A DNA stretch of 64,000 bases from Hydrogenimonas sp. SS33 (GTDB lineage Bacteria; Campylobacterota; Campylobacteria; Campylobacterales; Hydrogenimonadaceae), in assembly GCF_040436365.1 (NCBI RefSeq), contig NZ_AP026369.1:434001-498000 (forward strand), written 5' to 3'. The notes beneath the pieces were generated by a model. The model was not told where the DNA came from, did not search any database, and saw only the letters and a list, made by a program, of their open reading frames with translations. Below are positions 36,142-51,276 of this stretch, in pieces (the first letter of the stretch is position 1; every line of letters starts with the position of its first letter). The position numbers and the translations under genes were made by a program.

Positions 36142-37317
36142 TTATAGGCTCTCATCTTCGAGTGTGCCCATAAGTGTGCCCATTTTTTCTATTTTCTTAA
36201 GCCGTATCTCGTCGTTTTCTTCAATGAATTTGGTGTAGATTTTGAGGGTGATGCTCACATCTTTATGCCCCAACATCTTCGACACCCAAACAATATCCGC
36301 ACCTTTGCTGATTAGCTGTGATGCAAATGTATGTCTTAGATTATACAAAACACGGGCTTTGACCCCGGCGTTTCTAAGGATCCGTTGAAAATTGACTCCA
36401 ATAACATCATGGGAGTAGAAAGGCTGCCTTTTGGAATTGATAAAGACATGCTCATACTCTTGGGTCTGTTCATATTGGTCTCTGAGCGCTTTTTCAGCCA
36501 GGGGTAGCATATCGATGAAACGGTTGGATGCTCTGGTCTTGGTGGCTCCATCCTCGTTACGGATCCTTGTTTTTGTTACTTGGATCGTTTTGCGTTCAAA
36601 GTCGATATCGCTCCAGCGAAGTGCCACGATCTCTCCGGGGCGCATACCGGTGGCATACATCAGCCGGATGATGTTTTTCATATAGGTATTTCGCTTGTAT
36701 TCATTGGCATGTTCCAGGATCTTTTGCAGCTCCTCTTCGGTAAAGGGATCTACGCCGTTTTCATCCTCTTGGAGGTTGAGCATCACTTTTGGGGCGGTGA
36801 CTCTTTCCAGGGGATTTTTTCGGATGATGTCGTTATCGACGGCTTTTTCCAGGATGCTATAGAGGATCGATCGAAACTTCTGTACGGTACTTGGTTTGTA
36901 TTTTTGCAGCAGATCGTTTTGCCACCGCTCCAGCTCGATGGGTTTGAGGGTCTCGATGAGCCGGGTACCGAAATAGGGAAACACATGGTTTTTGTAGTGC
37001 GCTTTGCTGCGCTCTAGGGTGTGCTTTCGTATTTTGGTAGCCTGCAAGATAAAAAACTCCTGCGCCAGCTCATCAAGGATCCACTCTTTCTCTTCATAAG
37101 GCGGCACGACGTTATCCAGGAGCGATGCGGCGATATCGGGTATCAAGACGCGTTTTACCTCAATGATTCCTTCTTTGGAAGCCAAGATATCCGTGGATCT
37201 TCTGATCCTTTTCCCATCAAAGTAAAAGTCGATATAGAGCTTGCCGGATTCGGGTCGGGTCTTGATGGTAAACTTGATACCGCTGTAGTTGTATTTGACC
37301 GCTTTGACTTTAGCCAT
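36142..37317 (-). CDS. int: Tyrosine-recombinase integrase
   Basis: 391 residues: an N-terminal arm-binding part, SAM-like core-binding domain (~110-190, KYKPSTVQKFRSILYSIL) and catalytic domain with Arg in ATGMRPGEIVALRW (~232), LYNLRHTFASQL (second Arg-His; the usual first His of HxxR is Asn), LGHKDVSITLKIYTKF with the Tyr nucleophile (~368). The last residues (MGTLMGTLEDESL) are encoded by a duplicated GTGTGCCCA-type sequence that recurs at the right end of the element, suggesting arm-type binding sites inside the gene. Overlaps the upstream xis-like gene. Confidence 0.95.
   Translation of the reverse strand: MAKVKAVKYNYSGIKFTIKTRPESGKLYIDFYFDGKRIRRSTDILASKEGIIEVKRVLIPDIAASLLDNVVPPYEEKEWILDELAQEFFILQATKIRKHTLERSKAHYKNHVFPYFGTRLIETLKPIELERWQNDLLQKYKPSTVQKFRSILYSILEKAVDNDIIRKNPLERVTAPKVMLNLQEDENGVDPFTEEELQKILEHANEYKRNTYMKNIIRLMYATGMRPGEIVALRWSDIDFERKTIQVTKTRIRNEDGATKTRASNRFIDMLPLAEKALRDQYEQTQEYEHVFINSKRQPFYSHDVIGVNFQRILRNAGVKARVLYNLRHTFASQLISKGADIVWVSKMLGHKDVSITLKIYTKFIEENDEIRLKKIEKMGTLMGTLEDESL
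36162..36188 (+). repeat. Left arm-type repeat pair (GTGTGCCCA x2)
   Basis: GTGTGCCCATAAGTGTGCCC followed by ATTTTTT, two GTGCCCA units 12 bp apart, 53 bp inside the left att repeat. The same pair, with nearly the same T tract and in the same orientation, lies at 54448-54473. Candidate integrase arm sites. Confidence 0.65.
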
Positions 37318-37669
37318 TGCTCACCTTCTTGATCCCGGCGACGATGCGTTTTGCCGTGGGATTGACGGGCTCCGCTTTCATCTTTACCGGTTTACTCTCC
37401 TGCATCCGCCTTTTTTCGGGGTGATGCTTAAACTCGATGATGGCATCGGGGATAAACTCCAGTCTCTTGCCGTTTCGGTGAAAATGCACTCCTTCTTTGA
37501 GGATCCCTTTGCGCACCCAGCCTTCGATCGTTCGGGGAGAGACGTTGAGAAAGGTCGCCACCTGCTTGCTGGTGGTCAACGAGGTCAAGACAATCCTCAA
37601 CAGCTCCTTTTGAGCCTGCATCTCCTGCAAAATACGCTTGAGGGTAGTTTCGAGTTCTTCAAACATCAT
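37310..37669 (-). CDS. Helix-turn-helix protein, excisionase-like
   Basis: 119 residues. The N-terminus is an amphipathic helix (FEELETTLKRILQEMQAQKELL). A MerR/AlpA-type helix-turn-helix (TSKQVATFLNVSPRTIEGWVRKG, ~33-55) is followed by a wing (VHFHRNGKRLEFIPDAIIEF) and a basic tail. Next to int and overlapping it by 8 bp, so a directionality factor is the likely role, though a regulator is possible. GGAG precedes the first of two adjacent ATGs. Confidence 0.7.
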   Translation of the reverse strand: MMFEELETTLKRILQEMQAQKELLRIVLTSLTTSKQVATFLNVSPRTIEGWVRKGILKEGVHFHRNGKRLEFIPDAIIEFKHHPEKRRMQESKPVKMKAEPVNPTAKRIVAGIKKVSNG

Positions 37670-38058
37670 GTTCTCCTTTTGGATGTCATAAGTGTTTTGG
37701 CTATTTCGATCAGCTCATTCTCTTTCGCCGTAAGGTCATCAACGAGTCTCTCCACGCCTTCGTAGTCATGCTTGCCAAGTTTCGCCTCTGCTCTAAAATC
37801 TTCATTTTTGGTAAGCCACAACTTGAAAAGCCCTCCAAGTCGCCCAAGATCGGCTTTGGCTTTCAATAGTTGATCAACCGTATATTGATCCACTAGGCTT
37901 TGCAGCGGATAGCCCAAAGCAAGCCTACGGATATAGGAGGGCGTTTTGCATCCGCACATTGCCGCTTTAAGTCGCAGGCGTTCTTTTTCTTCACGGGTGA
38001 CTCGCACCATGATGTGTTCCTGGCGTTGCCTTGTCTCCGATTTACGACGCTTTGCCAT
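37666..38058 (-). CDS. TraJ/MobC-like relaxosome protein
   Basis: 130 residues. A basic ribbon-helix-helix N-terminus (MAKRRKSETRQRQEHIMVRVTREEKERL) and KTPSYIRRLALGYPL resemble IncP TraJ and MobC-type oriT-binding proteins. The C-terminal helical part (LLKAKADLGRLGGLFKLWL) fits the same family. In IncP plasmids TraJ recruits the relaxase TraI; no relaxase gene is in the element. The frame is open upstream, but that stretch is opposite-frame parA sequence. Confidence 0.72.
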   Translation of the reverse strand: MAKRRKSETRQRQEHIMVRVTREEKERLRLKAAMCGCKTPSYIRRLALGYPLQSLVDQYTVDQLLKAKADLGRLGGLFKLWLTKNEDFRAEAKLGKHDYEGVERLVDDLTAKENELIEIAKTLMTSKRRT

Positions 38059-38806
38059 TACACGCCTTTTGCTCAATGACCGAAAATGCCGGATTGAGGA
38101 TCTTTTCGACATACGTTTCACATTCATCATAGATTTGCAGCAGGGTGCTAAACTGGGCAATGCGGCGGTTATCGTCATCATCAAATGCTTCATCCAGCAT
38201 CTCTTCAAGTATCTTTTTCTCCTCTGCATCAAAAGCGATCTCATAGATACTCTTTTTGTTCCGGCGACTGAGATCCACCACGTCCGATTCGGTGAGTATC
38301 AGATACTCCGCCTCCGGAAACGCCCGGAAAAAGTCTCCATACTGGAATTGCAAACGCTTAGGGTTTCTTACACGGGAGAGAGCGAAGATCACCGGCACCC
38401 CAAAGCTCTTGATCATCTCATAAGTCTTTTCGGCGTTTTTGAGGTCTTGGTAGCCTCCACTCATCGGGATGATGAAAAGATCGATCTTGCGATAGAGCCG
38501 TGTCTTTTTCAGCCCCTCGATGATGATCGTGGTGGTTTTGTTACCGCCGACATCGATCACGATATTTTTATCCTTGGGTACCAGGATCGTATCTTTCAAG
38601 ACTTCATCCACATCCGTACCGTCTCCGATCTCCACCTGGGATGATTTGATTTTGGAGTTTGAGAATGTTTCGCTATCTTTATTCTCATCGTCAAACTCAA
38701 TGAGCTGCACTTCCTGCTTTTTTGCCAGGAATGAAGCTGCCGCCACTTGAAATGCCACGGTGCTTTTGCTTGCACCACCTTTGGTGTTTACTACTGCTAT
38801 TGTCAT
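38042..38806 (-). CDS. parA: ParA-family ATPase
   Basis: 254 residues with the deviant Walker A motif KGGASKST at the N-terminus (AVVNTKGGASKSTVAF), the switch strand NIVIDVGGNK (~82) and IIPMSGGYQDLKNA. No ParB partner is found. It lies between trbL and the TraJ-like gene, where ParA-like proteins often position transfer machinery or stabilise the element. A good AGGAG ribosome site precedes the ATG. Confidence 0.88.
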   Translation of the reverse strand: MTIAVVNTKGGASKSTVAFQVAAASFLAKKQEVQLIEFDDENKDSETFSNSKIKSSQVEIGDGTDVDEVLKDTILVPKDKNIVIDVGGNKTTTIIIEGLKKTRLYRKIDLFIIPMSGGYQDLKNAEKTYEMIKSFGVPVIFALSRVRNPKRLQFQYGDFFRAFPEAEYLILTESDVVDLSRRNKKSIYEIAFDAEEKKILEEMLDEAFDDDDNRRIAQFSTLLQIYDECETYVEKILNPAFSVIEQKACNGKAS

Positions 38807-38820
38807 TTTTACTTCTCCTG

Positions 38821-40092
38821 TTATGCTTGTTTGATCTCACCGGTGCTGCTGCCGGATTCACTTTTGAGTAGGCTCGTATCGAAGCCGTTTCGGTCTTTCG
38901 TGGATGAGACGCTTTTACCGCTAGTGCTGCCGCCGGTTGCCATCTTTACTGCTCCTTTGGCGACATTGAATCCGGCTTTCGCCACGCCTCCGGCAACTTT
39001 TGAGGTGCCGATACCGCTAAGTTGCCCGGTACCCTGACCGGCTCTACCGGTTGCACCTTTTGCCGCACCGGTGATTGCTCCGCCGATACTGCCTGCCAGT
39101 CCGGCACCGGCAGCTCTTCCGATATTTGCCATTCTCCCGCCGCCTTCACCGGCTGCCGCTGCCGCTTTGGCTGCGGCAAAGCCTCCGCCGGCTGCGCCTT
39201 TTGCCATGCCTGAAGCCGCTCCCACGGCTGCTTGCTGCACGGTTGAGGCGGAGCGCTGCATATAGCCGGTAATCACCGATCCGCCGCTGCTGCCCATACC
39301 GCTAAAGATCCCGTCCACAAAGCCTTCTACCCCTTCGGCGATCTCTTTGATGACAATCACGGCAAAGAGGGTCATCGCCAGATCCTTGATCTTGGCGTCA
39401 CTGCTAAGGGCATTGCCCAGGATGATCAAGCCGAGATCGACTACCAGGAGCATAAAGAGATACTTCGCCCCGTAGCGGAAGATATTCACAAAGGCGTTGA
39501 TGGCATACTGACGGGTTTGGCTAAAGGCTCCAAAGGCAAAGAATAGGCTGCTTCCATAGAGCGAAATGATCGAAAAGATATAGTTTTTGATGATCTGCCC
39601 GAGTAGGATAAAAAAGACGCCGGCACTTACAAGGATGATCAATGAGAGCAGTATCGCTTCGCCCGGTTTCCAGATCGATGCCTTTTTCCAGAGCTTGATG
39701 ACCATATTGACGATCTTTTTAAAGGCTTCATCCACATCTACGCCCCCGCCGACTTGGTGCGCCATCCAGGTGTAGCCCTGGAGAATCTTGCTTAGGTCAT
39801 AGGTGGCATAGATCAGCCAGGAGAAAAAGCCGAAGATCAGCACGATACGGATCAGATCGCCCATCACCGATCCAAACTCAAAATCTCCTTTGAGGAATTT
39901 CATGCTAAAAAGGAGAATCACTTCAAAGAACATCAGGTATCGAAAGACGCTCCAGCTGATATTGACAAACTGCCCGTGCCAATGCTCGATGGGGGTTTTC
40001 ACCAGGCGGATCACATCGCTGGGCATGATCGTCGAGGAGGCGGCATAAGTTGCGGCTGTCGCCAAAAACAGTAAAATCAAAATCTTCTTCAT
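38821..40092 (-). CDS. trbL: Conjugal transfer protein TrbL (VirB6-like)
   Basis: 423 residues. Signal-like start MKKILILLFLATAATYAAS, then five to six membrane helices (~45-300) and a Gly/Ala-rich C-terminal third (AAAKAAAAAGEGGGRMANIGRAAGAG, ~300-390) typical of TrbL. It would form part of an inner-membrane translocation channel. The frame's first 30 residues overlap the upstream gene out of frame, so I start at MKKILIL, which overlaps that gene's stop by 4 bp. Confidence 0.9.
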   Translation of the reverse strand: MKKILILLFLATAATYAASSTIMPSDVIRLVKTPIEHWHGQFVNISWSVFRYLMFFEVILLFSMKFLKGDFEFGSVMGDLIRIVLIFGFFSWLIYATYDLSKILQGYTWMAHQVGGGVDVDEAFKKIVNMVIKLWKKASIWKPGEAILLSLIILVSAGVFFILLGQIIKNYIFSIISLYGSSLFFAFGAFSQTRQYAINAFVNIFRYGAKYLFMLLVVDLGLIILGNALSSDAKIKDLAMTLFAVIVIKEIAEGVEGFVDGIFSGMGSSGGSVITGYMQRSASTVQQAAVGAASGMAKGAAGGGFAAAKAAAAAGEGGGRMANIGRAAGAGLAGSIGGAITGAAKGATGRAGQGTGQLSGIGTSKVAGGVAKAGFNVAKGAVKMATGGSTSGKSVSSTKDRNGFDTSLLKSESGSSTGEIKQA

Positions 40093-40298
40093 CGCTGCGC
40101 CTCTTTTCTCTTCGCCCTCCGGCGGCGATAGCTCCAGTTGGCATATCCTATGATCACCACGCCCACAATCAGTATCATCCAATCTCCCAGGCTGCTTGGA
40201 TCGGCAACGATCCGAAAAAGGGCATAGACGATGATCCAGGCGGCGATAAAGACCTGGACGAGGTTTTCAACGGTATTTGAGAATTCTTTACTTGTCAT
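40089..40298 (-). CDS. Small two-helix membrane protein
   Basis: 69 residues from MTSKEFSNTVENL with two hydrophobic segments (VFIAAWIIVYALF and DWMILIVGVVIIGYANW) and a basic tail. It sits between the TrbK-like and trbL genes, coupled to trbL by ATGA. I do not recognise a family; a conjugation-pore accessory is likely from context. AGG lies 9 bases upstream of this ATG, and an ATG two codons earlier is possible. Confidence 0.65.
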   Translation of the reverse strand: MTSKEFSNTVENLVQVFIAAWIIVYALFRIVADPSSLGDWMILIVGVVIIGYANWSYRRRRAKRKEAQR

Positions 40299-40308
40299 AA
40301 CCATCCAC

Positions 40309-40482
40309 CTAAAACATCGGCATTTTTTTGCCGCCGCCTTCCGGTAAAAGCTCACTATCCATTGCTTTGGCAGCATCGGATCGTTGGACGGTGCTATTTT
40401 GCTCTTTGGCTTTGCTCTTGCCGTTACAACCGCTCAATACCAGTGTCAGGGTGATAAACGCCAAAATAGAAACTCTTTTCAT
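40309..40482 (-). CDS. TrbK-like small lipoprotein
   Basis: 57 residues with lipobox LVLSGC (Cys 18) after MKRVSILAFITLTL. Its place between trbJ and trbL matches the IncP order trbJ-trbK-trbL, where TrbK is the entry-exclusion lipoprotein. The last 19 residues (AMDSELLPEGGGKKMPMF) closely match the end of the element's TrbJ. AGGAGCAATGAG precedes the ATG. The longer open frame upstream has no support. Confidence 0.72.
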   Translation of the reverse strand: MKRVSILAFITLTLVLSGCNGKSKAKEQNSTVQRSDAAKAMDSELLPEGGGKKMPMF

Positions 40483-40554
40483 CTCATTGCTCCTACTAAT
40501 AAAGTTGCTAAAATAGCTCAAGAGATAAGCAGGGAAGACCACATTTTACTTAGA

Positions 40555-40722
40555 TCCCTGTCCTTCTATCGAAGGACAAATCTCAAAGGAGTCTGTCACC
40601 TGCTTGCAATCCCGATAGGTTGATTGGGCGCCAAGCTCCCGTCATGATGGAGACAGGATCATGGCAGGTGCCTGCTTATCTGTTGAGCTTTCGTTCGGTT
40701 CTTGAAAGAGGAGGAATGCAAG
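40555..40722 (+). ncRNA. Candidate bridge-RNA region of the IS110 element
   Basis: Non-coding left end of an IS110 element, where the family encodes its bridge RNA. A perfect hairpin TGTCCTTC/GAAGGACA (40559-40578) is followed by a larger stem CACCTGC (40597-40603)/GCAGGTG (40664-40670) enclosing a ~60-nt internal loop region. The size (~170 nt) fits. Guide loops were not matched to the flanks, so this is positional inference. Confidence 0.45.
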
Positions 40723-41922
40723 ATGCGATACTTTCTTGGAATCGACGTCTCCAAGAGCAGTTTCGATATCGCGCTTCTTGATGGACAAAGCGGCCAGATC
40801 CGTCACGAGAAGCTCTCCATGGACAAAGAGGGCTTTAATGCGCTGATGGCGCATCTGAAACCTCTTGAGAAGGAGGAGCTCTTTGTCGTGATGGAGTCGA
40901 CCGGCATCTACCATCTGCCCCTGCTTTCGTTTCTGCTGGAGTGTGGCTTTGTCTGCAGCGTGGTCAACCCCACGCTGCTAAAGCATCACATCCAATCCTC
41001 TACACTCAGAAAGAGCAAGACCGACCGCAAGGACGCCCTGGCCATCGCGCGCTTCGCTTCGCTACACTACAGGGAGCTCAAGCCCATCGAGGGCACGCAG
41101 GCTCTGCAGAGCATCCGGCCCCTGCTCAAAGAGCGCGAAGCGCTCAGCAAGGAGGTGGCCAGGCTGAAAACCGACATCAAGGCGTTGGTCGATCAGCTCT
41201 TTCCCGAACTTTCAAAGAACACCAATATCTATACCCGGAGCATATTACATCTGCTCCTGCAAGCCCCTTCACGCAAGCGCGTGAGGAACTTGAAGGAGAA
41301 GAAGATCCAGCGCATTTTGGACGAAGCCAGCGGCAACAAGGCGACGCTTTCGGCCAAAGAGATCCTGGCCTGGGCCAAAGGCTCCATCGGCCTCAACAAC
41401 CCCCATCTCGAAACCGTGCTGCAATCGAAAATCCGACGGCTCCAGCATGTCCAGGCGGAGATCGAAACCCTCGAAAAGGCCATCGCCGAAGCGGTGAGAG
41501 ATGAGCATCTCGACGACTCCATCGATACACTCACCTCCATTCCCGGTGTCGGCTCCACCACCGCTACCCACTTCGTCGCCCACATCGGCTCCATTGAACG
41601 TTTCACCTCGGTCAAACAGCTTTGTGCCTTCGTCGGTTTCGATCCCTCCATTCGCCAAAGCGGCAGCTCCATCGATGGCAGAGGACACATCTCCAAAAGA
41701 GGACACGCCTCACTCAGGCGTACTCTTTGGCAGATGAGCCTGGGTGTCATTCGCCACATTCCCAAATACAGGGCCTACTACGAAAAAAAGCGCAAAGAAG
41801 GCAAAGCCTTCAAGCAGGCTGTCGTCGCTGTGGGCAATAAACTGCTTCGTCTCATATTCACGCTGTTAAAGAACCAAACCCAATTCGACCACAAATTGGC
41901 CGAAGTCGGTGTCACTTCGTGA
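40723..41922 (+). CDS. IS110-family transposase (DEDD/RuvC-like)
   Basis: 399 residues. The N-terminal DEDD domain shows YFLGIDVSKSSFDIA (Asp 7), VVMESTGIYHLPL (Glu ~55) and KTDRKDALAIARFA (Asp-Asp ~99). The C-terminal Tnp20 domain has SIPGVGSTTATHFVAHIG and GSSIDGRGHISKRGHASLRR, including the conserved Ser. ATG 40723 is preceded by GAGGAGG; a slightly earlier start is open. Looks intact. Confidence 0.93.
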   Translation: MRYFLGIDVSKSSFDIALLDGQSGQIRHEKLSMDKEGFNALMAHLKPLEKEELFVVMESTGIYHLPLLSFLLECGFVCSVVNPTLLKHHIQSSTLRKSKTDRKDALAIARFASLHYRELKPIEGTQALQSIRPLLKEREALSKEVARLKTDIKALVDQLFPELSKNTNIYTRSILHLLLQAPSRKRVRNLKEKKIQRILDEASGNKATLSAKEILAWAKGSIGLNNPHLETVLQSKIRRLQHVQAEIETLEKAIAEAVRDEHLDDSIDTLTSIPGVGSTTATHFVAHIGSIERFTSVKQLCAFVGFDPSIRQSGSSIDGRGHISKRGHASLRRTLWQMSLGVIRHIPKYRAYYEKKRKEGKAFKQAVVAVGNKLLRLIFTLLKNQTQFDHKLAEVGVTS

Positions 41923-41971
41923 CATCCAAACTCTTTATTTGGGGGTGGGTTTGTTTATAGTTGACTCCTTT

Positions 41972-42775
41972 TTAAAATCCGGGCATCTCATGCCCGCCGC
42001 CTTCGGGAAGCAGGTCACTGTCCATCGCTTTGATTTCAGCCTGGCGGGCTGCCTCGGTGTCGTTTTGGTGGGCGATCCACTCCGCTTGCAGGTTGGCTTG
42101 GGTCATTACGGTCTTTTGCAGCTTTTGGATCGATTCTGTTTGATGGTAAGCCAGCTGATTAGCAACGGCAATAGCGGCTTCGGTACCTTTGGCGCTGTTC
42201 ATGGCATTACGCAAACGCCCCATGAAGTGCTGATCGTTTTGCAAGTCACGCTCCTGGATCCCCAACGACTTAAGCGCATTGAGTGCGGTATCTTTGGTGG
42301 TTCGGTAGATGTTTTTATACACAGAGGAAAAATCCAGGTTGCCGCCCTGGGCTTGTTGCAGATATTGATCGTAACCTTTGAAGGATCGCTCAAAGCGTTG
42401 ATTGATATTGGCGGCGGTGTAGGCGATAGCCTGCCCCTGCTCAAGTGACTGCTTCATCTGCTGCGCCATATTGAGAAACTGGTTTTTCATATTCTCAGGC
42501 AACTGACGGATATTTTGAGCCATTAAACGAAGTCCCATAACTTTACGCTGCCACTCCTGCCACTGGATGGCATATTGTTGCAGTTGGGTGTAATATTGCT
42601 GCAACTGCTTTGTATAAGATGCCGCACGATCTCCAATGTCCGCCGCCCATTGAGCATCTTGTGTTACCTCCAACGCCCCGCCGAAGCCGCCGACACTTCC
42701 GGCATTTGCCGAAGTGGTAAAAAGCATCGCTACCGCTGCTGCCGAAAGTCCGAGTTTTTTCATTGTGTTTTTCAT
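41972..42775 (-). CDS. trbJ: Conjugal transfer protein TrbJ
   Basis: 267 residues with a cleavable signal (LSAAAVAMLFTTSANAG), then TrbJ-type helices: QWAADIGDRAASYTKQLQQY, NIRQLPENMKNQF, LQNDQHFMGRLRNAM, ANQLAYHQTESIQKLQ. TrbJ/VirB5-like proteins act in the periplasm in pilus or pore assembly. GGAG lies upstream of ATG 42775; the earlier in-frame start is unsupported. The C-terminus AMDSDLLPEGGGHEMPGF is shared with the TrbK-like lipoprotein. Confidence 0.88.
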   Translation of the reverse strand: MKNTMKKLGLSAAAVAMLFTTSANAGSVGGFGGALEVTQDAQWAADIGDRAASYTKQLQQYYTQLQQYAIQWQEWQRKVMGLRLMAQNIRQLPENMKNQFLNMAQQMKQSLEQGQAIAYTAANINQRFERSFKGYDQYLQQAQGGNLDFSSVYKNIYRTTKDTALNALKSLGIQERDLQNDQHFMGRLRNAMNSAKGTEAAIAVANQLAYHQTESIQKLQKTVMTQANLQAEWIAHQNDTEAARQAEIKAMDSDLLPEGGGHEMPGF

Positions 42776-42806
42776 CGTTTGTTTATCTCCTTTCTTGTTT
42801 GATGAA

Positions 42807-43085
42807 TTAAAGATCCAGGATCGGATCCATGCTGGTGATAGACTGATATGCCCTTGTGAGCTTTGCGTTAGCTCTGTGTAGGGCGATACGAAGCGCATCT
42901 TCTTTGCTCTGCGGCTGGTACTGGCTGAATAGATAATTAGCCAGGCGATTGGAATAGGTATCCAATATTTGGTCATACTCGATCATCTCATTGAGCCGGT
43001 CTTGAGATACGTTCAAGATTGATGCCGCCGCATCCCGGTCGCCGCAGCACCAGCCGATAAACTGCTTGGTTGTGATTTGTTTCAA
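42807..43085 (-). CDS. Hypothetical protein of the element operon
   Basis: 92 residues, soluble and mainly helical (CCGDRDAAASILNVSQDRLNEMI, KEDALRIALHRANAKLTRAY). The first part could be a small DNA-binding helix-turn-helix. I do not recognise it. It overlaps the upstream gene by 4 bp and precedes trbJ by 31 bp. Confidence 0.55.
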   Translation of the reverse strand: MKQITTKQFIGWCCGDRDAAASILNVSQDRLNEMIEYDQILDTYSNRLANYLFSQYQPQSKEDALRIALHRANAKLTRAYQSITSMDPILDL

Positions 43086-43783
43086 GATTTTTCTCCTTTT
43101 TGTTGATTTAGGAAGTCGATAGGGAGTTTCCCTTTGCTTGCAAGATCATATAGCCCGCTCCATATCTCTTTGGCTCTTGTTCCAGGAAACGTTTTGCCGG
43201 TACGACGGTCATAGAGCATCCCATCACTGCTTATGCCAATTTCCAATAGTTGACCTGTATATTTGGAATTGGTCAATGCAATTGTCTGGTTTGTGAAAGC
43301 TTCTCGCATATAGTTAACAAAGGATTCTTGAGATTTCAAAAAATCAGTATTCTTAGAGAGAGTTTTTTCTTTTTTATCTTTTCTTTTGTTCTCTTTTATT
43401 ATTTGTGTTGGTTTTGCCGCCTCCGGTATCACCGCCTCCGGTTTTTCCGCCTCCGGCATTTCAGTAGTCGGTAAAACATCCCGTGAAACGGCACCTTCTG
43501 AGTCAAAAACCCAAATTGTTTCAAATTTACCACTTTGATTCCTAGTCTGTACTGTAATGAGAAAGTCTTCTTCACGAAGTTCTTTGAGTGCCTTTCTTAA
43601 TGTGTCACGCCCTTCTTTCATATTTTGCAAGATAAATTCAAAGTTAAGTTCAAATCCATCTTGATGTAATTCAAGCCAAGCACCTAAGCCTTTAGCGCGT
43701 AAAGATATTTTTGGATTAGATAACAGTTTGCGGCTTACTGTTGCATAGCGAACTTTTTTCTTTTTCAATCGTATTTTCGCCAT
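43082..43783 (-). CDS. Helix-turn-helix replication-initiator-like protein
   Basis: 233 residues. Residues ~10-85 form a winged-helix (YATVSRKLLSNPKISLRAKGL...LQNMKEGRDTLRKALKEL) as in plasmid and phage replication or primosome-loading proteins. A Pro/Glu-rich linker with imperfect PEAxxPEA repeats (~108-125) leads to a C-terminal DnaD-like helical part. It could support replication of the excised element. Overlaps both neighbours by 4 bp. Confidence 0.6.
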   Translation of the reverse strand: MAKIRLKKKKVRYATVSRKLLSNPKISLRAKGLGAWLELHQDGFELNFEFILQNMKEGRDTLRKALKELREEDFLITVQTRNQSGKFETIWVFDSEGAVSRDVLPTTEMPEAEKPEAVIPEAAKPTQIIKENKRKDKKEKTLSKNTDFLKSQESFVNYMREAFTNQTIALTNSKYTGQLLEIGISSDGMLYDRRTGKTFPGTRAKEIWSGLYDLASKGKLPIDFLNQQKGEKS

Positions 43784-43971
43784 CAGTCAACCTTTGGCTC
43801 TCTGATATTATTATTAATGTAGTCTTCGATCCATTCCAACTTATAGACCACCCGTCTACCTATCTTCGCATACTTTATTTTTCTTTTTGAACGCAATGTG
43901 TTTTGCGTTTTAACGGGAATCGGCGGCAAACCATTAATCCCCATAGCTACTTCTTGAGGAGAAATCCACAT
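43783..43971 (-). CDS. AlpA/MerR-type small DNA-binding protein
   Basis: 62 residues with a compact winged helix (SPQEVAMGING...RSKRKIKYAKIGRRVVYKLEWIEDYI). First gene of the leftward transfer operon, downstream of a palindromic promoter region, so probably its regulator or an excision activator. Confidence 0.65.
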   Translation of the reverse strand: MWISPQEVAMGINGLPPIPVKTQNTLRSKRKIKYAKIGRRVVYKLEWIEDYINNNIREPKVD

Positions 43972-43995
43972 TTCAAGTCCCTCCAGTTCTATATA

Positions 43996-44082
43996 TTAGA
44001 ATATAATTCTAAATAGCATTGTATCTTCCAAAACTTGAATATATTCTTAAATATTCCATATTTTTCGATATAATTCTAAATA
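43996..44082. promoter_or_regulatory. Operator region between divergent element genes
   Basis: Perfect inverted repeat TTAGAAT-ATA-ATTCTAA (43996-44012), and the 15-bp direct repeat ATATAATTCTAAATA at 44001-44015 and 44068-44082. The repeats include TATAAT-like boxes, so binding would occlude both divergent promoters. A phage-like control switch is inferred. Confidence 0.6.
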
Positions 44083-44103
44083 TTGATCGATATGGAGATT
44101 TGT

Positions 44104-44643
44104 ATGGCTGTCAAAAAAGGGAAAGAGTATAAAGAGGTAGCTTCTAAAATTTTAGGGTGCACTTTGGCAAGTTACTATAATTGGGATAAGCAGAACCGTC
44201 CAATCATTGCTCTTCTGGAGAAATATTTTTCCAAAGAAGACCTTGAAGAGTTTTTATTGTATGGCAAAGTAAGAAAATTGGAAGACAGTACAATAGATCC
44301 AACAATTATAGATCATGCTTACTATTCTCTCAAGCCCAAACTAAAAGAAGTTTTTGGAGGTCCTATATTAGGCCCAAACAAGATATACACCAAAGGAGCC
44401 AAAGAGATACTCATCGACGTGTTGAAAAAAATCTCTCCAAAGGACACTTTTTTTACTATCGAAAATGCCAAAGATAGATTGCTGGATCGTATTAGCGAAG
44501 AAGAGCTCAAGTGGCTTGCCATTAAAAACTCTGCCAAAAGGGATCTACTTAGCCACTACATCAAAGAGAACTTTTCAAATGCCGAGATTCTTGCGATGGT
44601 TCAAAGAAGCGATGAGACTGTAGAGTTTTTAAAGAAAATTTGA
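44104..44643 (+). CDS. Probable HTH regulator of the element
   Basis: 179 residues. The N-terminal ~55 residues (YKEVASKILGCTLASYYNWDKQNRPIIALLEKYF) form a helix-turn-helix of the type in the element's other small regulators, where a Trp-Lys/Asp follows the recognition helix. The rest is helical and unrecognised. GGAG lies 8 bases before ATG 44104. It is transcribed away from the transfer operon across the shared operator, so a repressor role is likely. Confidence 0.55.
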   Translation: MAVKKGKEYKEVASKILGCTLASYYNWDKQNRPIIALLEKYFSKEDLEEFLLYGKVRKLEDSTIDPTIIDHAYYSLKPKLKEVFGGPILGPNKIYTKGAKEILIDVLKKISPKDTFFTIENAKDRLLDRISEEELKWLAIKNSAKRDLLSHYIKENFSNAEILAMVQRSDETVEFLKKI

Positions 44644-44650
44644 TTAACTT

Positions 44651-45916
44651 TTATTTCTTTTCTAATATGATCACACTCTCTCGTAATGTATCAATATCTG
44701 GACTATACTTAGTTTTTCTTTTTCTGATTTCACGCAATACACCTATTTCTTTTAATTTCCATCCATGTTTGGTTGCTATGTCTGCCAAAATTAAATCTAC
44801 CGGTATTTCTGCATTAGCATATGCTGAATTGGAAACCACCATCCATAAGTGTGCATACTTATTAGCTTTTTGACTTAATTGATAAAAAACCCCCTTCATA
44901 TCTTCAAAATAAGCCAAAACCATTTGAGGTATTCGTGGATGCATTAAGGACTCTTTGTTAGACATTAATCTTTGGTAAACATCTTTTAAAATCAAACTAT
45001 CTATATAGTCACTCTTTGGAGTTTTCCATTTTGCCTGGACATGAGAACGCACAGTTTTCAATCTTAATTTGTATAACTCCTCTGAAGAGGAAATAAACTT
45101 GCCTAGAAATAATTCAGGTCTATATATATCTGTATAATCAAATGTATTTAAATATGGTGGAGATGTAACAATAAGATCAAAATATGAACTTTGTTTTTTT
45201 AAAATTGATCTTGAATCTGAATTGTATATTTTAGAACTGCTCCTAATTATTGTATGTTCTATATCTTCTACAATCTTCTTGTAATGCTTTTCAAATTCAA
45301 TGAGAAAATCGTTTTTAGAAAACTTTAATTCTTTCCAAGCACTTTTATACCGCAAGCATTTACCATCCTTCCTTGCATTGGATACATTCATAATTGAGTT
45401 AATAAGTGCAAGGCGTAACATCTTAGATGCATTCGACCTATGGTTTTCTAAATAGCTATACCCTCCATAAAAAGAGCGTAATACATCAAGATTAAAAAGC
45501 CATTTGTCTTTTCCTGATAACTCAGTAAAAGTTGAATACTTTTCTAATTGGCTATATTCTCTACCTAATATAGCATTTTCATATGTTTCCTCAAAGAGCT
45601 TTGAAAGAACTTTAGGATTTGTATTTAGTGTTTTGGTTTTGGCAACAAATGCAGTAAAGGGATTAACCTCTATACCAACGGAAGGTATGTTTTGTTCTGC
45701 AGCCGTTAAAGTAACTGTACCACTACCATTAAATGGGTCTAATATCATATGCTCTGAAGTAAGTTCTCTACTTTCTATTGCAGATCTTACTAAATTTGGA
45801 GAAAACCCCTCCTTATAATAATACCAACGATGCCTTGCAAAGTTATCCGATTCTACAAAATTTGAAGTTCCTTGATCTTTAAGCTCAAAATTATGGTTTA
45901 TATATTTAGCTGTCAT
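44651..45916 (-). CDS. DNA methyltransferase (N4/N6 type) of the SMC cluster
   Basis: 421 residues. SAM-binding motif I MILDPFNGSGTVTL (~57) precedes catalytic motif IV LIVTSPPYLNTFDY (~245), so this is not the beta-class order. TSPPY is common in N4-cytosine enzymes. The region between (~100-240) would hold target recognition. Last gene of a four-gene operon with nuclease, middle component and SMC ATPase, 3 bp after the nuclease stop. Probably protects host DNA from the neighbouring nuclease; the site cannot be predicted. Confidence 0.85.
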   Translation of the reverse strand: MTAKYINHNFELKDQGTSNFVESDNFARHRWYYYKEGFSPNLVRSAIESRELTSEHMILDPFNGSGTVTLTAAEQNIPSVGIEVNPFTAFVAKTKTLNTNPKVLSKLFEETYENAILGREYSQLEKYSTFTELSGKDKWLFNLDVLRSFYGGYSYLENHRSNASKMLRLALINSIMNVSNARKDGKCLRYKSAWKELKFSKNDFLIEFEKHYKKIVEDIEHTIIRSSSKIYNSDSRSILKKQSSYFDLIVTSPPYLNTFDYTDIYRPELFLGKFISSSEELYKLRLKTVRSHVQAKWKTPKSDYIDSLILKDVYQRLMSNKESLMHPRIPQMVLAYFEDMKGVFYQLSQKANKYAHLWMVVSNSAYANAEIPVDLILADIATKHGWKLKEIGVLREIRKRKTKYSPDIDTLRESVIILEKK

Positions 45917-45919
45917 CGA

Positions 45920-46978
45920 TTACTCACAAATAGGTTCTGCAAACATTCTGAATGGCTTTTCTATATTTGTATAAGTTTCCCAGTATTTTCTATCATCTTG
46001 TATGTCAAGTTTTTTATTTTCATAATATAGACCATCTTCACGATTTATGCTATGCTTAATTTCCAAAGATATATTTCTTCTACGACAATCTATTACCACT
46101 AAATAGCCTTTTGTTATAATATCCGGGCTATCTGAATTATCATAATCTATATATTCTTTTATCTGACTCATACCATCATTTGCACGACCATTTGAGTAAC
46201 TTGTACCAATCGTTTCCTCTTCTTTTACAGATTGCCCCATCCATTTTATTTCAATTAACGCAGCACGATTTGCTTCTTTCCAAAAAACTCTTATATCTAC
46301 AGGTTTACTTGCATTTAAATTATATTCACGAACAACATTGATTCCACGAATTCTACTAGATAAAAACTCTTTCAATGATATTTGCATACACGCTTCAGGT
46401 TTATTTTTTAAATATATCCTCTTATCATCAAACCAACATTGCTTTAAGAGTTCACACGATGTATGTCTTACTTTGTTATTTTTGTAATCAAGCAGAGCCT
46501 CTTGCAAATCATGATACTGTAGTGCATATATACTTGGGCAACTAAAACTATTTTGAATCCTGATCACATTCCCATTTACTGAATAATATTCATTTTTATT
46601 AGATCCATCATATACATAAGCAATAAAGTCATTATTTGTATTTATAAGTTCATCAATATCTTTATTGTTCCAAATTACAGGCAAGGAGGCTTCATCATCA
46701 GTTAATTTAAAAATCAGAGTAGCATATTCATGACCTAATATGGAAGGATCATAATATCTATTTCCATCAGACTCATCAAATAAAATTCTTCCTTCTGAGA
46801 AGTCAATAAAAACAACTATTTGTCCATTGTAATGAGATGGTTCAATATTTCTATATAAATCTTTTACAAATTTAACTATATTATTTGTTGCTGATAAATA
46901 TTTACTATCTCCTCCTGTCTGTTTTACTATATCCATAATATAAGTTTCTCTTGAAACTGCTAAACGTTCTTCTGGCAT
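45920..46978 (-). CDS. PD-(D/E)XK-type nuclease candidate
   Basis: 352 residues, no named family recognised. Residues ~235-262 (KPVDIRVFW...RAALIEIKWMG) fit the PD-(D/E)XK core: Asp in a strand, then E-x-K in the next. The N-terminal half has mixed alpha/beta structure with a conserved-looking FIDFSEGRILFD. It is one base after the 193-residue gene and just before the methyltransferase gene, consistent with the cutting subunit of the system. Confidence 0.6.
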   Translation of the reverse strand: MPEERLAVSRETYIMDIVKQTGGDSKYLSATNNIVKFVKDLYRNIEPSHYNGQIVVFIDFSEGRILFDESDGNRYYDPSILGHEYATLIFKLTDDEASLPVIWNNKDIDELINTNNDFIAYVYDGSNKNEYYSVNGNVIRIQNSFSCPSIYALQYHDLQEALLDYKNNKVRHTSCELLKQCWFDDKRIYLKNKPEACMQISLKEFLSSRIRGINVVREYNLNASKPVDIRVFWKEANRAALIEIKWMGQSVKEEETIGTSYSNGRANDGMSQIKEYIDYDNSDSPDIITKGYLVVIDCRRRNISLEIKHSINREDGLYYENKKLDIQDDRKYWETYTNIEKPFRMFAEPICE

Positions 46979-46979
46979 T

Positions 46980-47561
46980 TTAATTCTCCATATGAACTTG
47001 CTTTAAGAGATAATCCACCCATGAAACGGCTGGTAGCAGTAATTCATCTGATGGAGCTCCTATCTTAGTGGTTATTTCTTTTAGTTTTTCATTACTATAT
47101 GTCACCCAATCTTGATTGTTTGTTTGTTGTTCTTTTTTTAAGCCAGGATCATTTAGAAGAGCCTCTTTGGTTTCTTTGTATGGAATCAAAATGCTTGTAG
47201 AACATGCAGCATCAAGATATTTCTCTCTTTTTTTATTTGTAGGAAGTTTTTTAAACTTGTTAAATTCATCTGTACCTCTACCGGTAATAATCAAAAAACT
47301 TCCTGTATCTTCAAAATAACCATTTTTTTCATTATTTTTAATAGCGTCACTTAATACCTTTGCATGAGGATAGCCATCGCTATCTATAGTAAATTTATAC
47401 CCCCAATTAGCAGTTGGAGCCCCTTTGTAGTGAAATAAAATAGCTGAAAAATATGCGAACAAGTGAATCTCTTTTTCTTCAAAACCATCTAAAAAGTTAT
47501 CTAATTTATGCGCTATCGAAAGGCAGTCAAAATATGCCTCTGGTAAAATTTGGTTGAACAT
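46980..47561 (-). CDS. Middle component of SMC/ABC three-component-like system
   Basis: 193 residues, unrecognised by motif. Mostly helical N-terminus (ILPEAYFDCLSIAHKLDNFLDGF) and a mixed centre (LFHYKGAPTANWGYKFTID, GSFLIITGRGTDEF). Its size and place between an SMC-like ATPase gene and a nuclease gene match the middle component of ABC-three-component and Lamassu (LmuC) systems. ATG directly abuts the ATPase stop (TAAATG). Confidence 0.55.
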   Translation of the reverse strand: MFNQILPEAYFDCLSIAHKLDNFLDGFEEKEIHLFAYFSAILFHYKGAPTANWGYKFTIDSDGYPHAKVLSDAIKNNEKNGYFEDTGSFLIITGRGTDEFNKFKKLPTNKKREKYLDAACSTSILIPYKETKEALLNDPGLKKEQQTNNQDWVTYSNEKLKEITTKIGAPSDELLLPAVSWVDYLLKQVHMEN

Positions 47562-49550
47562 TTATTTCCCCCTTAATGCTCTATCTATATTCTCATATAC
47601 TTCATTAAATAGAACTTCCCCTTCTTTTTGTATCTCCGTCATATCCGTCCATTCAAGCATTCTTCTAAAATACATTTTTTCTTCACCACATCTTTTTGCC
47701 AATGCTACCAATAATTGAGACGCATTGATATTTGCAGTCATAATAATATTTTGATTGTAATCTACCACAAAATCAGCAAACATTTGACCTACTCGATTTT
47801 CATAAGCTATATCCAACGATCCTTCAGGTGTATCTATTAGAAGTGTGGCTTCATTTCCTTTTTTTGACAAATAGATTGCCAATGTCATTCTAAGAGCAAT
47901 ATCTAAAAAAAATCTTTGGCTCTCAGAAAGCTGATAAGATTCTGTCCTTCTTGTCCCTAAAAGCTCAAAGTTAAGTTTAATATTTTTTGCACCTTTTTTT
48001 TGAAAGTATATATTTAAATCGAGCCCAATAAAGCTTTTTGACAATTTTTTAAATAATGGAACAAAATATGTTTCAGCTCTTTTGTAGTTTTCCTCAACAT
48101 TTTTTAAAAGGTTTTCATATTCAGGCTTAAGTTGATCTCTTTGCTTGTAATAGTCATCTGCTTTTTTATCTTCTTTTTCAAATCTATCTTTATATTCACT
48201 AAGAAGAGAGTCTGTTATTGTATCTCCTGTTGATTTGAAACTTATAGAAGAATTTTCTTTTTCAAACTTCTCTAATTTTTCTTTTGACGAGATATAATTA
48301 TATTCAGCTTTTTCAAGTTCTACTTTTTTTGCATCAGATTCAAAAATCAGACTTTCCAAATCTTTATTTTTCCCTTCAATCTTCTTATCTATCTCTTCTA
48401 GTTGATGTAAAATTTGATTTTGAACCTTATTTTTATCGTTGTCTATCTTGGTATCACAAATAGGGCATTGATCCTGATATAAGTTCTTTTCAATTTTTTC
48501 AATAATATGATGACCTTTTGCACCACATAGGAAACATTCATGATTTGCTTTAGAAAATTGAACATATTGGTTATTCAATAATCTTGATCTTGGCTCAGAG
48601 TATTGAGAAAACAATCTTTTGTATTGAATTTTGTATTGAAGTATTTCCGAATTAATGATATTTTGTCTTTTCAGTAGTGTGTCATACTCAGATTCTATAT
48701 TATGGAATTTCTTTTCGGACTCCTCAACAATATTTATTAGCAGATCATATTCTTTTTTAAGATCATCCCAGTTGAGCAACTCCATTTCTTTTTTTGTATT
48801 TAAAAGCATTTCCATTTCTTTTTTGATTTGGGTGGCTTGCCACCTGGCGTTTCTAGCGTGAGATTCAAGAACTTCCATCTCTTTTTTTAGTTCCAGAATC
48901 CTTTCTGTATCATCCAAAGAATCATTAAATGCCATTGAAAGTGTGTTGGTCGATGCTTTTTCATTCCAAAATAACATCCGTCTATTTTCATCAAATGTCA
49001 AAACATAAAGTTGAAAGAAAACAAAATTTTCAAAGCTTCCAATACCCATATCATTAGCTAATGATGATTGGTATATACGATTTAACTCTTCTGAACTTGA
49101 GTTTGTTTCGTTTAGTATAGATTCAGTTTTATTTTTATCTAAATTGTTGTAAATTTCAAAAGATCTAAGAGCATTTCTATTATCAAATCCACGAACTATT
49201 CTATATGTCTTTTTATTGATTTCAAAAGTGATTTCTATTTCAGCCTTATCGTAATCTCTGACATTTATTCTACCTTTAAAATAGTCTTCTGTGTAACTTT
49301 TATTTTCTGTTTCAATCTCTTTTGGCAATAAAACATCTTTATTTGGTGCCAAAACCAAACCGGTCAAACCATAGTTAATAATATTTAAGAATGTTGTTTT
49401 TCCAAGCCCATTTGCACCTGCTAAACAATAGACCCCATTGTTGATATTCTCTTCTACTTCCGTAGTTTTTTCATTTTTAGAATATAGAGAAAAATTTCGT
49501 ATTTTTATTTTTTGGATATTTATAAAATTAAATCTCCCTTTACTTTTCAA
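47562..49550 (-). CDS. Rad50/SMC-like ATPase with zinc-finger hook
   Basis: 662 residues. Walker A GANGLGKTTFLN (~44) after the IKIRNFSLYS start typical of RecF/Rad50 ATPases; two coiled coils (~225-320 and ~375-490) flank a hook-like turn with CFLCGAKGHH and QCPICDTKID (four cysteines). The C-terminal lobe has signature YQLSESQRFFLDIALRM (~545) and Walker B with D-loop TLLIDTPEGSLD (~585). Start is TTG with GGGGA upstream. First gene of the operon; expected to sense or load on DNA and license the nuclease. Very AT-rich compared with the core genome. Confidence 0.85.
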   Translation of the reverse strand: MKSKGRFNFINIQKIKIRNFSLYSKNEKTTEVEENINNGVYCLAGANGLGKTTFLNIINYGLTGLVLAPNKDVLLPKEIETENKSYTEDYFKGRINVRDYDKAEIEITFEINKKTYRIVRGFDNRNALRSFEIYNNLDKNKTESILNETNSSSEELNRIYQSSLANDMGIGSFENFVFFQLYVLTFDENRRMLFWNEKASTNTLSMAFNDSLDDTERILELKKEMEVLESHARNARWQATQIKKEMEMLLNTKKEMELLNWDDLKKEYDLLINIVEESEKKFHNIESEYDTLLKRQNIINSEILQYKIQYKRLFSQYSEPRSRLLNNQYVQFSKANHECFLCGAKGHHIIEKIEKNLYQDQCPICDTKIDNDKNKVQNQILHQLEEIDKKIEGKNKDLESLIFESDAKKVELEKAEYNYISSKEKLEKFEKENSSISFKSTGDTITDSLLSEYKDRFEKEDKKADDYYKQRDQLKPEYENLLKNVEENYKRAETYFVPLFKKLSKSFIGLDLNIYFQKKGAKNIKLNFELLGTRRTESYQLSESQRFFLDIALRMTLAIYLSKKGNEATLLIDTPEGSLDIAYENRVGQMFADFVVDYNQNIIMTANINASQLLVALAKRCGEEKMYFRRMLEWTDMTEIQKEGEVLFNEVYENIDRALRGK

Positions 49551-49887
49551 AATTTCCCCTTATCTATTTACTATTATAGTATTTTGGCTTATATAGACTT
49601 CAATCTTCTTGAGCATCTCAAGATGCGAATACCCTTCAGGACGTTAATGCTATGGCTTCGGCTTGCCGACGGTATAGCATTCACACTTCCTGCCTTTTGA
49701 TTCAAACACACATTAGAACATTTTAGCAAACTTTGGCTAAACCCTCTACCTCAATGGGCTAAAATCGGCTATAGCCGCCTAAAATCGTAATAAGGTGCAA
49801 TACCATTTGCCTTAGTTTGCTTAAATTTGCTAAGATTTGATATAATGTGCTAAAATGAACTAAAATGCAATATAGGGGAGCTAAAGC
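49551..49887. promoter_or_regulatory. 337-bp gap: candidate oriT, promoters and GCTAAAAT repeats
   Basis: Contains a -10-like ATTATA (49573-49578, minus strand) for the SMC operon and an inverted repeat AATGCTAT/ATAGCATT (49646-49653, 49674-49681) with a GC-rich interior. It is followed after 6 bases by TCCTGCC, resembling IncP-type nick regions. Then a series of (G)CTAAAAT motifs near 49757, 49778, 49849 and 49860 leads to the TraK-like gene. As IncP oriT lies beside traK, this is the best oriT candidate. Confidence 0.45.
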
Positions 49888-50289
49888 ATGGCGGCGATGC
49901 GTGGAATGCACAAAGTGGAGTTTTTTACCCATCTCGATGAGATAAAAACGATGTATCAAAACGGCTATGTCGTCTTGAAAATTCTCTATGAAGAGCTAAA
50001 GAAAAAATATAACTGGTCAATGTCGTATTGGTCATTTTGTAAGTACATGAAAGAAGAGGTACTTGCCACAGATTCTGACACCACGCCAAAGAGCAGGGGA
50101 GAGACCCAGGCTAAAAAAGAGGCTGAAATTTATATGAAAAATTTAGAGGCAAAGGAACCCGTATCAGCTGAAAAATCTGAGACAGTTACAAAACCAGTTG
50201 AGCCGGACTCTGAGAAAGAGCGTAAACGCCGTATCTCCCAGGAACTATTGGAACGCAATGATGCTTTCATTGGAGACAAGTGGAAATAA
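49888..50289 (+). CDS. TraK-like oriT-binding protein
   Basis: 133 residues. The N-terminus (VEFFTHLDEIKTMYQNGYVVLKILYEELKKKY...MSYWSFCKYMKE) matches the TraK/DUF5338 pattern: helices followed by an SMSYxxFxxY recognition segment. The C-terminal half is charged and probably disordered. IncP TraK binds and bends oriT DNA; the repeats just upstream could be its sites. GGGGAGC precedes ATG 49888; later ATGs at codons 4 and 7 are possible. Confidence 0.65.
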   Translation: MAAMRGMHKVEFFTHLDEIKTMYQNGYVVLKILYEELKKKYNWSMSYWSFCKYMKEEVLATDSDTTPKSRGETQAKKEAEIYMKNLEAKEPVSAEKSETVTKPVEPDSEKERKRRISQELLERNDAFIGDKWK

Positions 50290-50317
50290 CTCCACAGTTT
50301 TGTAGTCATATAAAACA

Positions 50318-50563
50318 CTACATCTTTTCCTCAAGGTCCGTCCAGGGCTTGGCTGCATCTTTTAATTTCTTTGCAGCCGCTTGATAGTCTATATCTTTGA
50401 GGTCTAAGCCTTGAACTTCATTTATCCATACCTGGACAAATTTGTTTTTGGCAGCCTCAAACTGTTTTGTGTCGATTCCATATTTGACTCTCAATCTTGA
50501 GAGAGATGCCCTCTCAGAGCTGTATATCTCTCTTAGTACATCATATTCCATCGGTGTTGCCAT
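50318..50563 (-). CDS. Hypothetical protein, tandem paralogue 2
   Basis: 81 residues beginning MATPMEYDVLREIYSSERASLSRL. It shares about half its residues with the gene immediately upstream: both start MATPMEYD, and both have EVK/EVQ..DLKDIDYQAA and DAAKPW. Helical, soluble, unknown function. A product of tandem duplication in the element. Confidence 0.65.
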   Translation of the reverse strand: MATPMEYDVLREIYSSERASLSRLRVKYGIDTKQFEAAKNKFVQVWINEVQGLDLKDIDYQAAAKKLKDAAKPWTDLEEKM

Positions 50564-50574
50564 TCGGACTCCTT

Positions 50575-50814
50575 TTAGATATTAAGACTCATCCAGGGCT
50601 TAGCCGCATTTCTCATATTTTGGGCAGCTGCTTGGTAGTCAATCTCTTTAAGATCCTTTCGTTTGACTTCATTGAGCCATATCTGGACAAAGTTGTTTTC
50701 AGCCTCTTTGAATTGTGCTGCATCGATAACTTGTTGTGTCTCTACTCTTGTGAGTGCTGCCATCGCAGAGCTATAAATCTCTCTTAGCGTGTCGTATTCC
50801 ATCGGTGTTGCCAT
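50575..50814 (-). CDS. Hypothetical protein, tandem paralogue 1
   Basis: 79 residues (MATPMEYDTLREIYSSAMAALTRV...DLKEIDYQAAAQNMRNAAKPW), paralogous to the next gene 11 bp downstream. Function unknown. Its ATG overlaps the stop of the upstream RHH gene by one base (TAATG). Confidence 0.65.
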   Translation of the reverse strand: MATPMEYDTLREIYSSAMAALTRVETQQVIDAAQFKEAENNFVQIWLNEVKRKDLKEIDYQAAAQNMRNAAKPWMSLNI

Positions 50815-51218
50815 TACCGCTCCTTCTGTTGAAATTGATCCAAAAGCAAACTCACCATTTGCGATAGATTCAGCCCCAGGGCTTTGGCTTGAGCTGAGAG
50901 CCGTTCATGCACTGCTTTATCCAACGTTACCTGAGTACGCTTGTGCCGGTTGCGAGATTTGCCCACCCGCATAGCTACCCGCAGCTTTCCAAGCTGATCT
51001 GCGTCGATATAGGTTGTGATCCAATCATTGAGGGCTTCAAGTTGGGATTCATCCACCGGCAGAGCATCGTCAAACTTCTCTAACGCTTCACGGGCTTGCT
51101 CTTTATGTTTAGATTCACGCCAAAAAGAGGGGCTTTTCTCAAAGCTGCGACGTAGATACGCCAGGGCAATGGTGTATTCCTCTTCGTCTCTGATCCGCCA
51201 CCGGTTGGATCGCTGCAT
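50814..51218 (-). CDS. Ribbon-helix-helix protein
   Basis: 134 residues from MQRSNRWRIRDEEEY. The C-terminal ~45 residues (KRTQVTLDKAVHERLSAQAKALGLNLSQMVSLLLDQF) form a ribbon-helix-helix DNA-binding domain; the N-terminal part is helical. It may regulate its own operon via the palindrome at 51235-51251 or act in mobilisation (MobC-like). Confidence 0.65.
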   Translation of the reverse strand: MQRSNRWRIRDEEEYTIALAYLRRSFEKSPSFWRESKHKEQAREALEKFDDALPVDESQLEALNDWITTYIDADQLGKLRVAMRVGKSRNRHKRTQVTLDKAVHERLSAQAKALGLNLSQMVSLLLDQFQQKER

Positions 51219-51234
51219 TGTCACTCCTATATTA

Positions 51235-51251
51235 ATGTTACATTGTAACAT
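51235..51251. promoter_or_regulatory. 17-bp palindrome ATGTTACATTGTAACAT
   Basis: Perfect odd palindrome directly upstream of the RHH gene, 16 bp before its start codon; likely operator. Confidence 0.55.
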
Positions 51252-51276
51252 ATCATCCTTTATGAATTTATAAGTC

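Follow-up and report, generated by a model that had tools for sequence, protein, structure and literature searches.

A relaxase-less element carrying trbJ, trbK and trbL in Hydrogenimonas sp. SS33, a likely satellite of IncP/Trb-type conjugative elements

Satellites that carry TrbJ, TrbK and TrbL have been known from a few proteobacterial islands. GISul2 encodes these three proteins and no relaxase, and no relaxosome proteins were reported for it; an IncP helper, remodelling of the helper's MPF_T and retrotransfer have been proposed (Guedon 2017, PMC5704250). The 'IncP island' of Burkholderia glumae encodes MobP, TraJ, TraK, TrbJ, TrbL and a TrbK candidate (Guedon 2017; Yoshii et al. cited there). 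Here we describe an element of Hydrogenimonas sp. SS33, found within a window of 64,000 nucleotides (the whole stretch of DNA analysed), together with its relatives, which extend the TrbJKL satellites to a varied family in another phylum, the Campylobacterota. The family ranges from relaxase-bearing to relaxase-less members, with matching of oriT sequences. We consider the SS33 element likely (probability roughly 0.75) to be a relaxase-less integrative mobilizable element (IME) that is a satellite of an IncP/Trb-type conjugative element; its transfer is inferred.

The SS33 element resembles GISul2 (for example in the Acinetobacter plasmid pAB3) in its int, AlpA and replication genes, in having TrbJ, TrbK and TrbL as its sole MPF genes, and in lacking a relaxase. 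It differs in that GISul2 is proteobacterial and has no reported relaxosome proteins, whereas the SS33 element keeps TraJ, TraK and StbB; because TraJ- and TraK-like genes are present, we file it as a variant of the GISul2 type. The IncP island, as described by Guedon 2017, likewise has TraJ, TraK, TrbJ, a TrbK-like protein and TrbL without other MPF genes, but it has its own MobP relaxase, as do most of the Campylobacterota siblings. The SS33 element is thus intermediate between the two, with no relaxase and with TraJ and TraK retained. The complete, self-transmissible IncP plasmids R751 and RP4 have the same kinds of TraJ, TraK, TrbJ, TrbK and TrbL; R751 served as the IncP reference for the oriT and TrbJ comparisons. 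An earlier note on this DNA had likened the locus to SGI1, which is likewise a relaxase-less satellite with genes for a few of its helper's mating-pore proteins. SGI1, however, uses F-type TraN, TraG and TraH with IncA/C helpers and shares no homologous transfer genes; the SS33 element gave no Pfam matches of those kinds and lies at ybgC rather than at trmE. GISul2 and the IncP island are the better comparison.

The element is integrated, spans about 18.5 kb (36085-54580) and is flanked by exact 25-bp direct repeats. The left repeat, attL (36085-36109), lies in the first codons of ybgC (35735-36121, minus strand), and the right repeat, attR (54556-54580), is an exact copy with an IS3 insertion just outside the element. 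The repeat reads CGGTGTCCTCATAATAGACCCGTAT, with a chance expectation of about 4e-9. The earlier note had placed the element at 37666-50289, and this extent is corrected by the repeats. As read from the sequence, an in-frame ATG is retained beside attR and would be an alternative start for the uninterrupted ybgC. The same gene borders the related elements L018/L045, L019/L050, L044 and L052. A clean empty ybgC site could not be proven within the genus, where G124 has an integrase fragment adjoining ybgC. Next to attL is a tyrosine integrase gene (int, 36142-37317, minus strand; PF00589, 111.7 bits) whose product has 66-67% identity to the integrases of ybgC-site elements. A site-specific integrase with att repeats, and an oriT with the mobilisation proteins TraJ and TraK without a complete T4SS, together meet the structural criteria for an IME, whose excision and helper-dependent transfer are inferred.

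The transfer genes follow int on the minus strand. An HTH_17 excisionase-like gene (xis, 37310-37669; PF12728), with homologues beside int in L018, L019, L044 and L052, has its start overlapped by the stop of a traJ/nikA-like gene for a putative oriT-binding protein (37666-38058). The latter matches the Pfam NikA-like family at 68 bits (cut-off 27; E 7.5e-19), and its best NCBIfam match is TraJ (E 3.6e-25), under the equivalog cut-off. Adjoining traJ, in the position of TraL, is a gene for a StbB/ParA-family ATPase (38042-38806; StbB and ParA_partition matches), 60% identical to the StbB that follows traK in L020, a complete trb element. Then come a VirB6-like trbL (38821-40092; PF04610, 45.7 bits against a cut-off of 25.9, E 8.5e-12; TIGR02783, 9.6e-13), a small membrane ORF, orf95 (40089-40298), with homologues in L015 and L018, and a gene for a TrbK-like lipoprotein of 57 aa (40309-40482). 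No curated TrbK family matched in an HMM search with a 77-aa ORF, and the identification rests on position, the lipobox LSGC and a TrbJ-like tail. As a small lipoprotein encoded between trbJ and trbL it satisfies the description of a TrbK entry-exclusion lipoprotein, and its exclusion function is inferred. An IS110-family insertion on the plus strand (about 40495-41957; transposase 40702-41922, PF01548 and PF02371) separates trbK from the VirB5-like trbJ (41972-42775, minus strand), whose product scores 101.5 bits with TIGR02780, narrowly over the curated cut-off of 100.55. A TrbJ profile gave no VirB5 match among solved structures. In L036 and L052, trbJ and trbK are directly adjacent. Upstream of trbJ, orf92, an HTH replication-like gene (43082-43783) and an AlpA-like HTH gene (43783-43971) occupy 42807-43971 on the minus strand, in the same order as in L015, L018, L021 and others. 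A conserved regulator-like gene on the plus strand (44083-44643) has no Pfam match, and its homologues diverge from alpA in L018, L023 and L027. Beyond the cargo, a traK-like gene for a second putative oriT-binding protein (49888-50289, plus strand) sits just downstream of oriT; its match to DUF5338 is sub-threshold (E 7.7e-4), and it is 45% identical to its homologue in L019. As an observation apart, trbK and trbL have a small membrane ORF between them in most satellites of the family, and no such ORF separates trbJ and trbL in L020.

No protein of the element that was scanned matched the relaxase, VirB4, TraG or TrbB families, and PF03432 (relaxase), PF03135 (VirB4) and PF03743 (VirB10) had no match across the whole SS33 genome, so that no helper was found in the chromosome. 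The assembly is a single contig of 2,254,567 bp rated 100% complete; a plasmid outside it is not ruled out. The requirement of VirB4, a coupling protein and a relaxase for an autonomous ICE is not met, the coupling protein having been looked for only within the element. Two candidates for a hidden relaxase were rejected. The replication-like protein has only a sub-threshold Replic_Relax match (E 0.06) and is also present in relaxase-bearing siblings, and is therefore no substitute; a distal relaxase such as that of L045 (G218:C20) does not exist between the SS33 att repeats. The earlier note's inventory thus held: TraJ- and TraK-like proteins, TrbJ and TrbL are present (TraK weakly by HMM, TrbK by position, lipobox and tail), and the element proteins scanned gave no match to the TraI, TraG, TrbB and TrbE types. 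Its gene order trbJ-trbK-trbL held too, with the IS110 insertion and the intervening membrane ORF as corrections.

An oriT of IncP type is predicted at 49609-49700 on the plus strand, upstream of traK, with nic between 49692 and 49693, at the junction of CATTCACACTTCCTG and CCTTT. The placement is the same in relatives and in R751, and the plan is that of the R751 oriT, TTGAG...GCGAATA...CAGGA, an inverted repeat, and then TTCCTG/CC. Over the 20 nucleotides at nic, identity to SS33 is 20/20 in L036 and 19/20 in the complete trb element L020, while five further IMEs of the family reach 14-15/20. The motif was found in 5 of 397 genomes, and the reversed pattern, used as a control, in none. L020 carries trbB-C-D-E-J-L-F-G-I, and if its contig is circular it has traI-traJ to the left of oriT and traK-stbB to the right. 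The relaxase-less branch thus shares its oriT with a complete element, as would be expected if it depended on the relaxase of that element. The association rests on small numbers, namely one relaxase-less lineage (SS33 and L036) and one full element, plus GISul2. In pAB3 (L071, near 35154), the oriT of GISul2 is nearly identical to that of R751, which supports the proposed IncP helper. In a TrbJ tree with some long branches, GISul2 groups with R751 (100/100) and not with the Campylobacterota satellites, and this grouping implies that the trbJ-K-L trio was captured independently, more than once.

A TrbJ search gave matches in 12 of 397 Campylobacterota genomes, that of G124 being doubtful (E 7.5e-4). 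VirB4 is present in only three of the 12 (G249, G083 and G024), and of the 11 genomes in which trbJ is clear, 8 lack VirB4 entirely. A scan of the collection with five TrbJ sequences added 18 loci, some of them on the same contigs, most with trbJ-trbL and without adjacent trbB or trbE. Within the limits of contig ends, the typical locus comprises alpA, the replication-like gene, trbJ, trbK, trbL, traJ and an integrase. A MobP relaxase gene follows traJ in L015, L017, L019, L022, L024, L037, L040, L046, L047 and L052, whereas traJ is directly followed by xis or a similar small gene in SS33, L036, L039, L044 and L045, the last of which has its relaxase at the far end of the element instead. The loci L036, L039 and L044 run off the ends of their contigs, and because of this truncation a distal relaxase cannot be excluded for L036 and L039. 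Among the ybgC-site sisters whose junction is complete, L052 is the nearest; it encodes a relaxase of 539 aa in the interval from traJ to xis, so the absence in SS33 is probably derived. The relaxase-less state nevertheless looks old, because the TraJ proteins of SS33, L036 and L039 make up a separate group (53-59% identity). Two side observations concern other members: in L015 (9431-16084, a Nitratifractor MAG), int, stbB and trbJ are disrupted by frameshifts or stops, with relaxase, traJ and trbL intact, and the satellite contig L038 has been assigned to a MAG of the Archaeoglobaceae, most likely through misbinning. We found no earlier description of Campylobacterota IMEs in the open-access literature searched.

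The trb and tra genes of SS33 are under purifying selection. Compared with the closest relative, L036, dN/dS is 0.083 for TrbL, 0.092 for TrbJ, 0.106 for StbB, 0.122 for orf95 and 0.145 for TraJ, where relaxed decay would be expected to give about 1. These are NG86 estimates at high dS (about 1-2.5) and are approximate.

Over their final 8-20 residues, TrbJ and TrbK are alike within each element and unlike between elements. The tails of TrbJ and TrbK, respectively, are KAMDSDLLPEGGGHEMPGF and KAMDSELLPEGGGKKMPMF in SS33, DDRSPIRYQR and DDRSPIRYQK in L037, GEILDSTQYHYKY and GEILDSTKYNYKY in L021, RGGQTMEPRW and RGGQEMKPRW in pTiC58, YRASPARTW and FKPSPKREW in R751, and FRPSPADNY and FKPSPKDDY in GISul2; both proteins end in SIKGNEPNIKTW in L023 and in TKPTPIGTYQN in Sphingobium. 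Among 14 representatives with less than 40% TrbJ identity, the mean Smith-Waterman score was 49.4 for own pairs versus 14.5 for mismatched pairs, a value reached by 0 of 100,000 permutations; the null is not tree-aware. Three controls with neighbouring regions showed no matching. The pattern was spotted in part of the tested data, and plasmid pairs added later played no role in spotting it. It holds in most proteobacterial plasmids checked and is weak in R388, R46 and pKF707. The covariation of the tails spans SS33 (38821-42775), L020, L068, L071 and L072-L087, being seen in Trb-type systems and, weakly, between VirB5 and Eex of IncN and IncW; conceivably, tail mimicry extends from Trb-type to all VirB-type conjugation. 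The pattern may be a new observation, and an earlier description could exist in literature that was not searched.

The tails do not follow the rest of TrbJ. SS33 and L037 share 78% in the TrbJ body and 89% in StbB, but their J and K tails are unrelated and TrbL is only 34% identical; by comparison, SS33 and L036 share 79% in the TrbJ body, have matched tails and share 91% in TrbL, while L037 and L039 have tails in common and share 70% in TrbL. DNA similarity to SS33 ends at 42072 in L037, L038 and L041 and at 42062 in L039, about 90-100 bp before the trbJ stop. Because similarity of the TrbJ body and StbB is decoupled from the tails and TrbL, the J tail, K and L move as one unit.

Published work on exclusion is relevant here. 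Exclusion is lost when TrbK is truncated at its C terminus or has a premature stop there, and IncP TrbK is stated to be without an identified partner in the donor (PMC8923210); RP4 TrbK lacking its 8 C-terminal residues is also reported to lose exclusion (Haase 1996). Recipients that carry TrbJ or TrbK are protected from the RP4 apparatus (PMC11045733). VirB5 occupies the tip of the pilus and, until the pilus is assembled, rests on VirB6 (PMC12624023). The matched tails suggest a self-recognition code for exclusion, the function being inferred from sequence. An even bet is a bolder reading, that TrbK copies the TrbJ tail, that the incoming machine reads it, probably via TrbL, to distinguish self from non-self, and that the J tail, K and L form an exchangeable specificity cassette.

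We suggest the following sequence of events, all of it inferred. After excision, TraJ and TraK of SS33 would mark its own oriT, and the TraI relaxase, coupling protein and channel of a helper would process this oriT, which resembles that of the complete Campylobacterota element. TrbJ (pilus tip, VirB5) and TrbL (base, VirB6) of the satellite would join the helper's apparatus and alter the recipients entered, and its TrbK would exclude its own kind from the recipient. The matched tails would be the recognition code of this exclusion and TrbL its likely reader, and the J-K-L swap would let the satellite enter cells already immune to the helper. Through matched tails, mating elements may thus identify their own kind and keep it out. 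The covarying tails, together with the block exchanges seen in nature, point to specific residues and to a candidate reader for the unidentified donor partner of TrbK; a specificity cassette, if true, would explain why satellites of separate lineages carry exactly trbJ, trbK and trbL. Against the satellite reading, IS110 lies between trbJ and trbK-trbL, where it may have a polar effect, and the chromosome contains no identified helper.

Three alternative explanations deserve consideration. The one that survives best, and remains possible, concerns the tails only: their match may be mere copying of DNA between neighbouring genes, by gene conversion or duplication, without a recognition function. 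The tail DNA is 100% identical between trbJ and trbK in L023 and L025, and gene conversion therefore contributes. The protein match is nevertheless kept despite silent changes (identical residues use differing codons at 7 of 15 positions in SS33 and 7 of 8 in L039); trbJ and trbK of L020 have matching tails although they lie 5 kb apart; regions next to the tails show no match; and loss of the TrbK C terminus abolishes exclusion. Both fresh DNA copying (L023, L025) and long upkeep through silent changes (SS33, L039) occur.

A second alternative is that the SS33 element is a decaying remnant of a relaxase-bearing IME that has lost its relaxase and transfer. In favour of it are the relaxase of the sister L052 at the traJ-xis junction, the IS110 within the trb operon and IS3 beside attR, the disrupted int, trbJ and stbB of the related L015 element, and the SS33 genome without a helper. 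We regard it as unlikely, since all core ORFs of SS33 are intact, five genes have dN/dS of about 0.1 relative to L036, whose traJ-xis junction likewise lacks a relaxase, the TraJ grouping makes the relaxase-less state look old, and oriT is retained and matched to that of a full element. The weakest alternative, that the trb genes are an immunity module excluding incoming Trb-type elements without remodelling any helper, draws on the protection given by TrbJ or TrbK alone in a recipient and on the other defence-like cargo of the element, but is improbable given that TrbL, which is not known to have an exclusion role alone, is conserved (dN/dS 0.08), that GISul2 and the IncP island retain J, K and L as the same set, and that oriT with TraJ and TraK implies transfer.

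The satellite reading, which the earlier note had put forward as a question, is thus supported as the best one, with transfer and pore remodelling inferred; its view that decay was less likely is also supported, by the intact core ORFs, purifying selection and a conserved family. Of the checks it proposed, a search for the partial gene set elsewhere succeeded (about 15 related Campylobacterota loci), and one for an IncP-like helper in the SS33 genome did not. Neither of the findings it had named as refuting the idea was made: the scanned proteins of the element gave no match to a hidden relaxase or VirB4, and the close relatives are without a full trb set.

The middle third of the element (44651-49550, minus strand) encodes defence-like proteins: a DNA methyltransferase (MTase_II, 1.9e-62), two uncharacterised ORFs and an SMC-type, LmuB-like ATPase (LmuB, 7.5e-24). 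One of the uncharacterised ORFs has a possible PD-(D/E)XK-like stretch, as judged by eye. The cargo has 89-93% nucleotide identity to that of L015/L016 and L041, elements of another family, and identity of about 90% across families implies recent exchange. To the right of traK, at 50318-50814, are tandem small paralogous genes (81 and 79 aa, with an 80-nt repeat), which are paired in L037 too. Near attR, two modules (51320-53007 and 53292-54433) each consist of an HTH gene and an AbiEii-like nucleotidyltransferase gene, and the HTH genes are mutually related. A gene resembling these HTH genes lies beside a TTCCTG-type oriT in an island of G047 (L061, 9346-17842) that adjoins ybgC. This oriT has no trb genes in its vicinity, and the same is true of oriT sequences of that type in G010 (L062, 235) and in G203 (L064), which has two copies, at 18114 and 18242, 128 bp apart.
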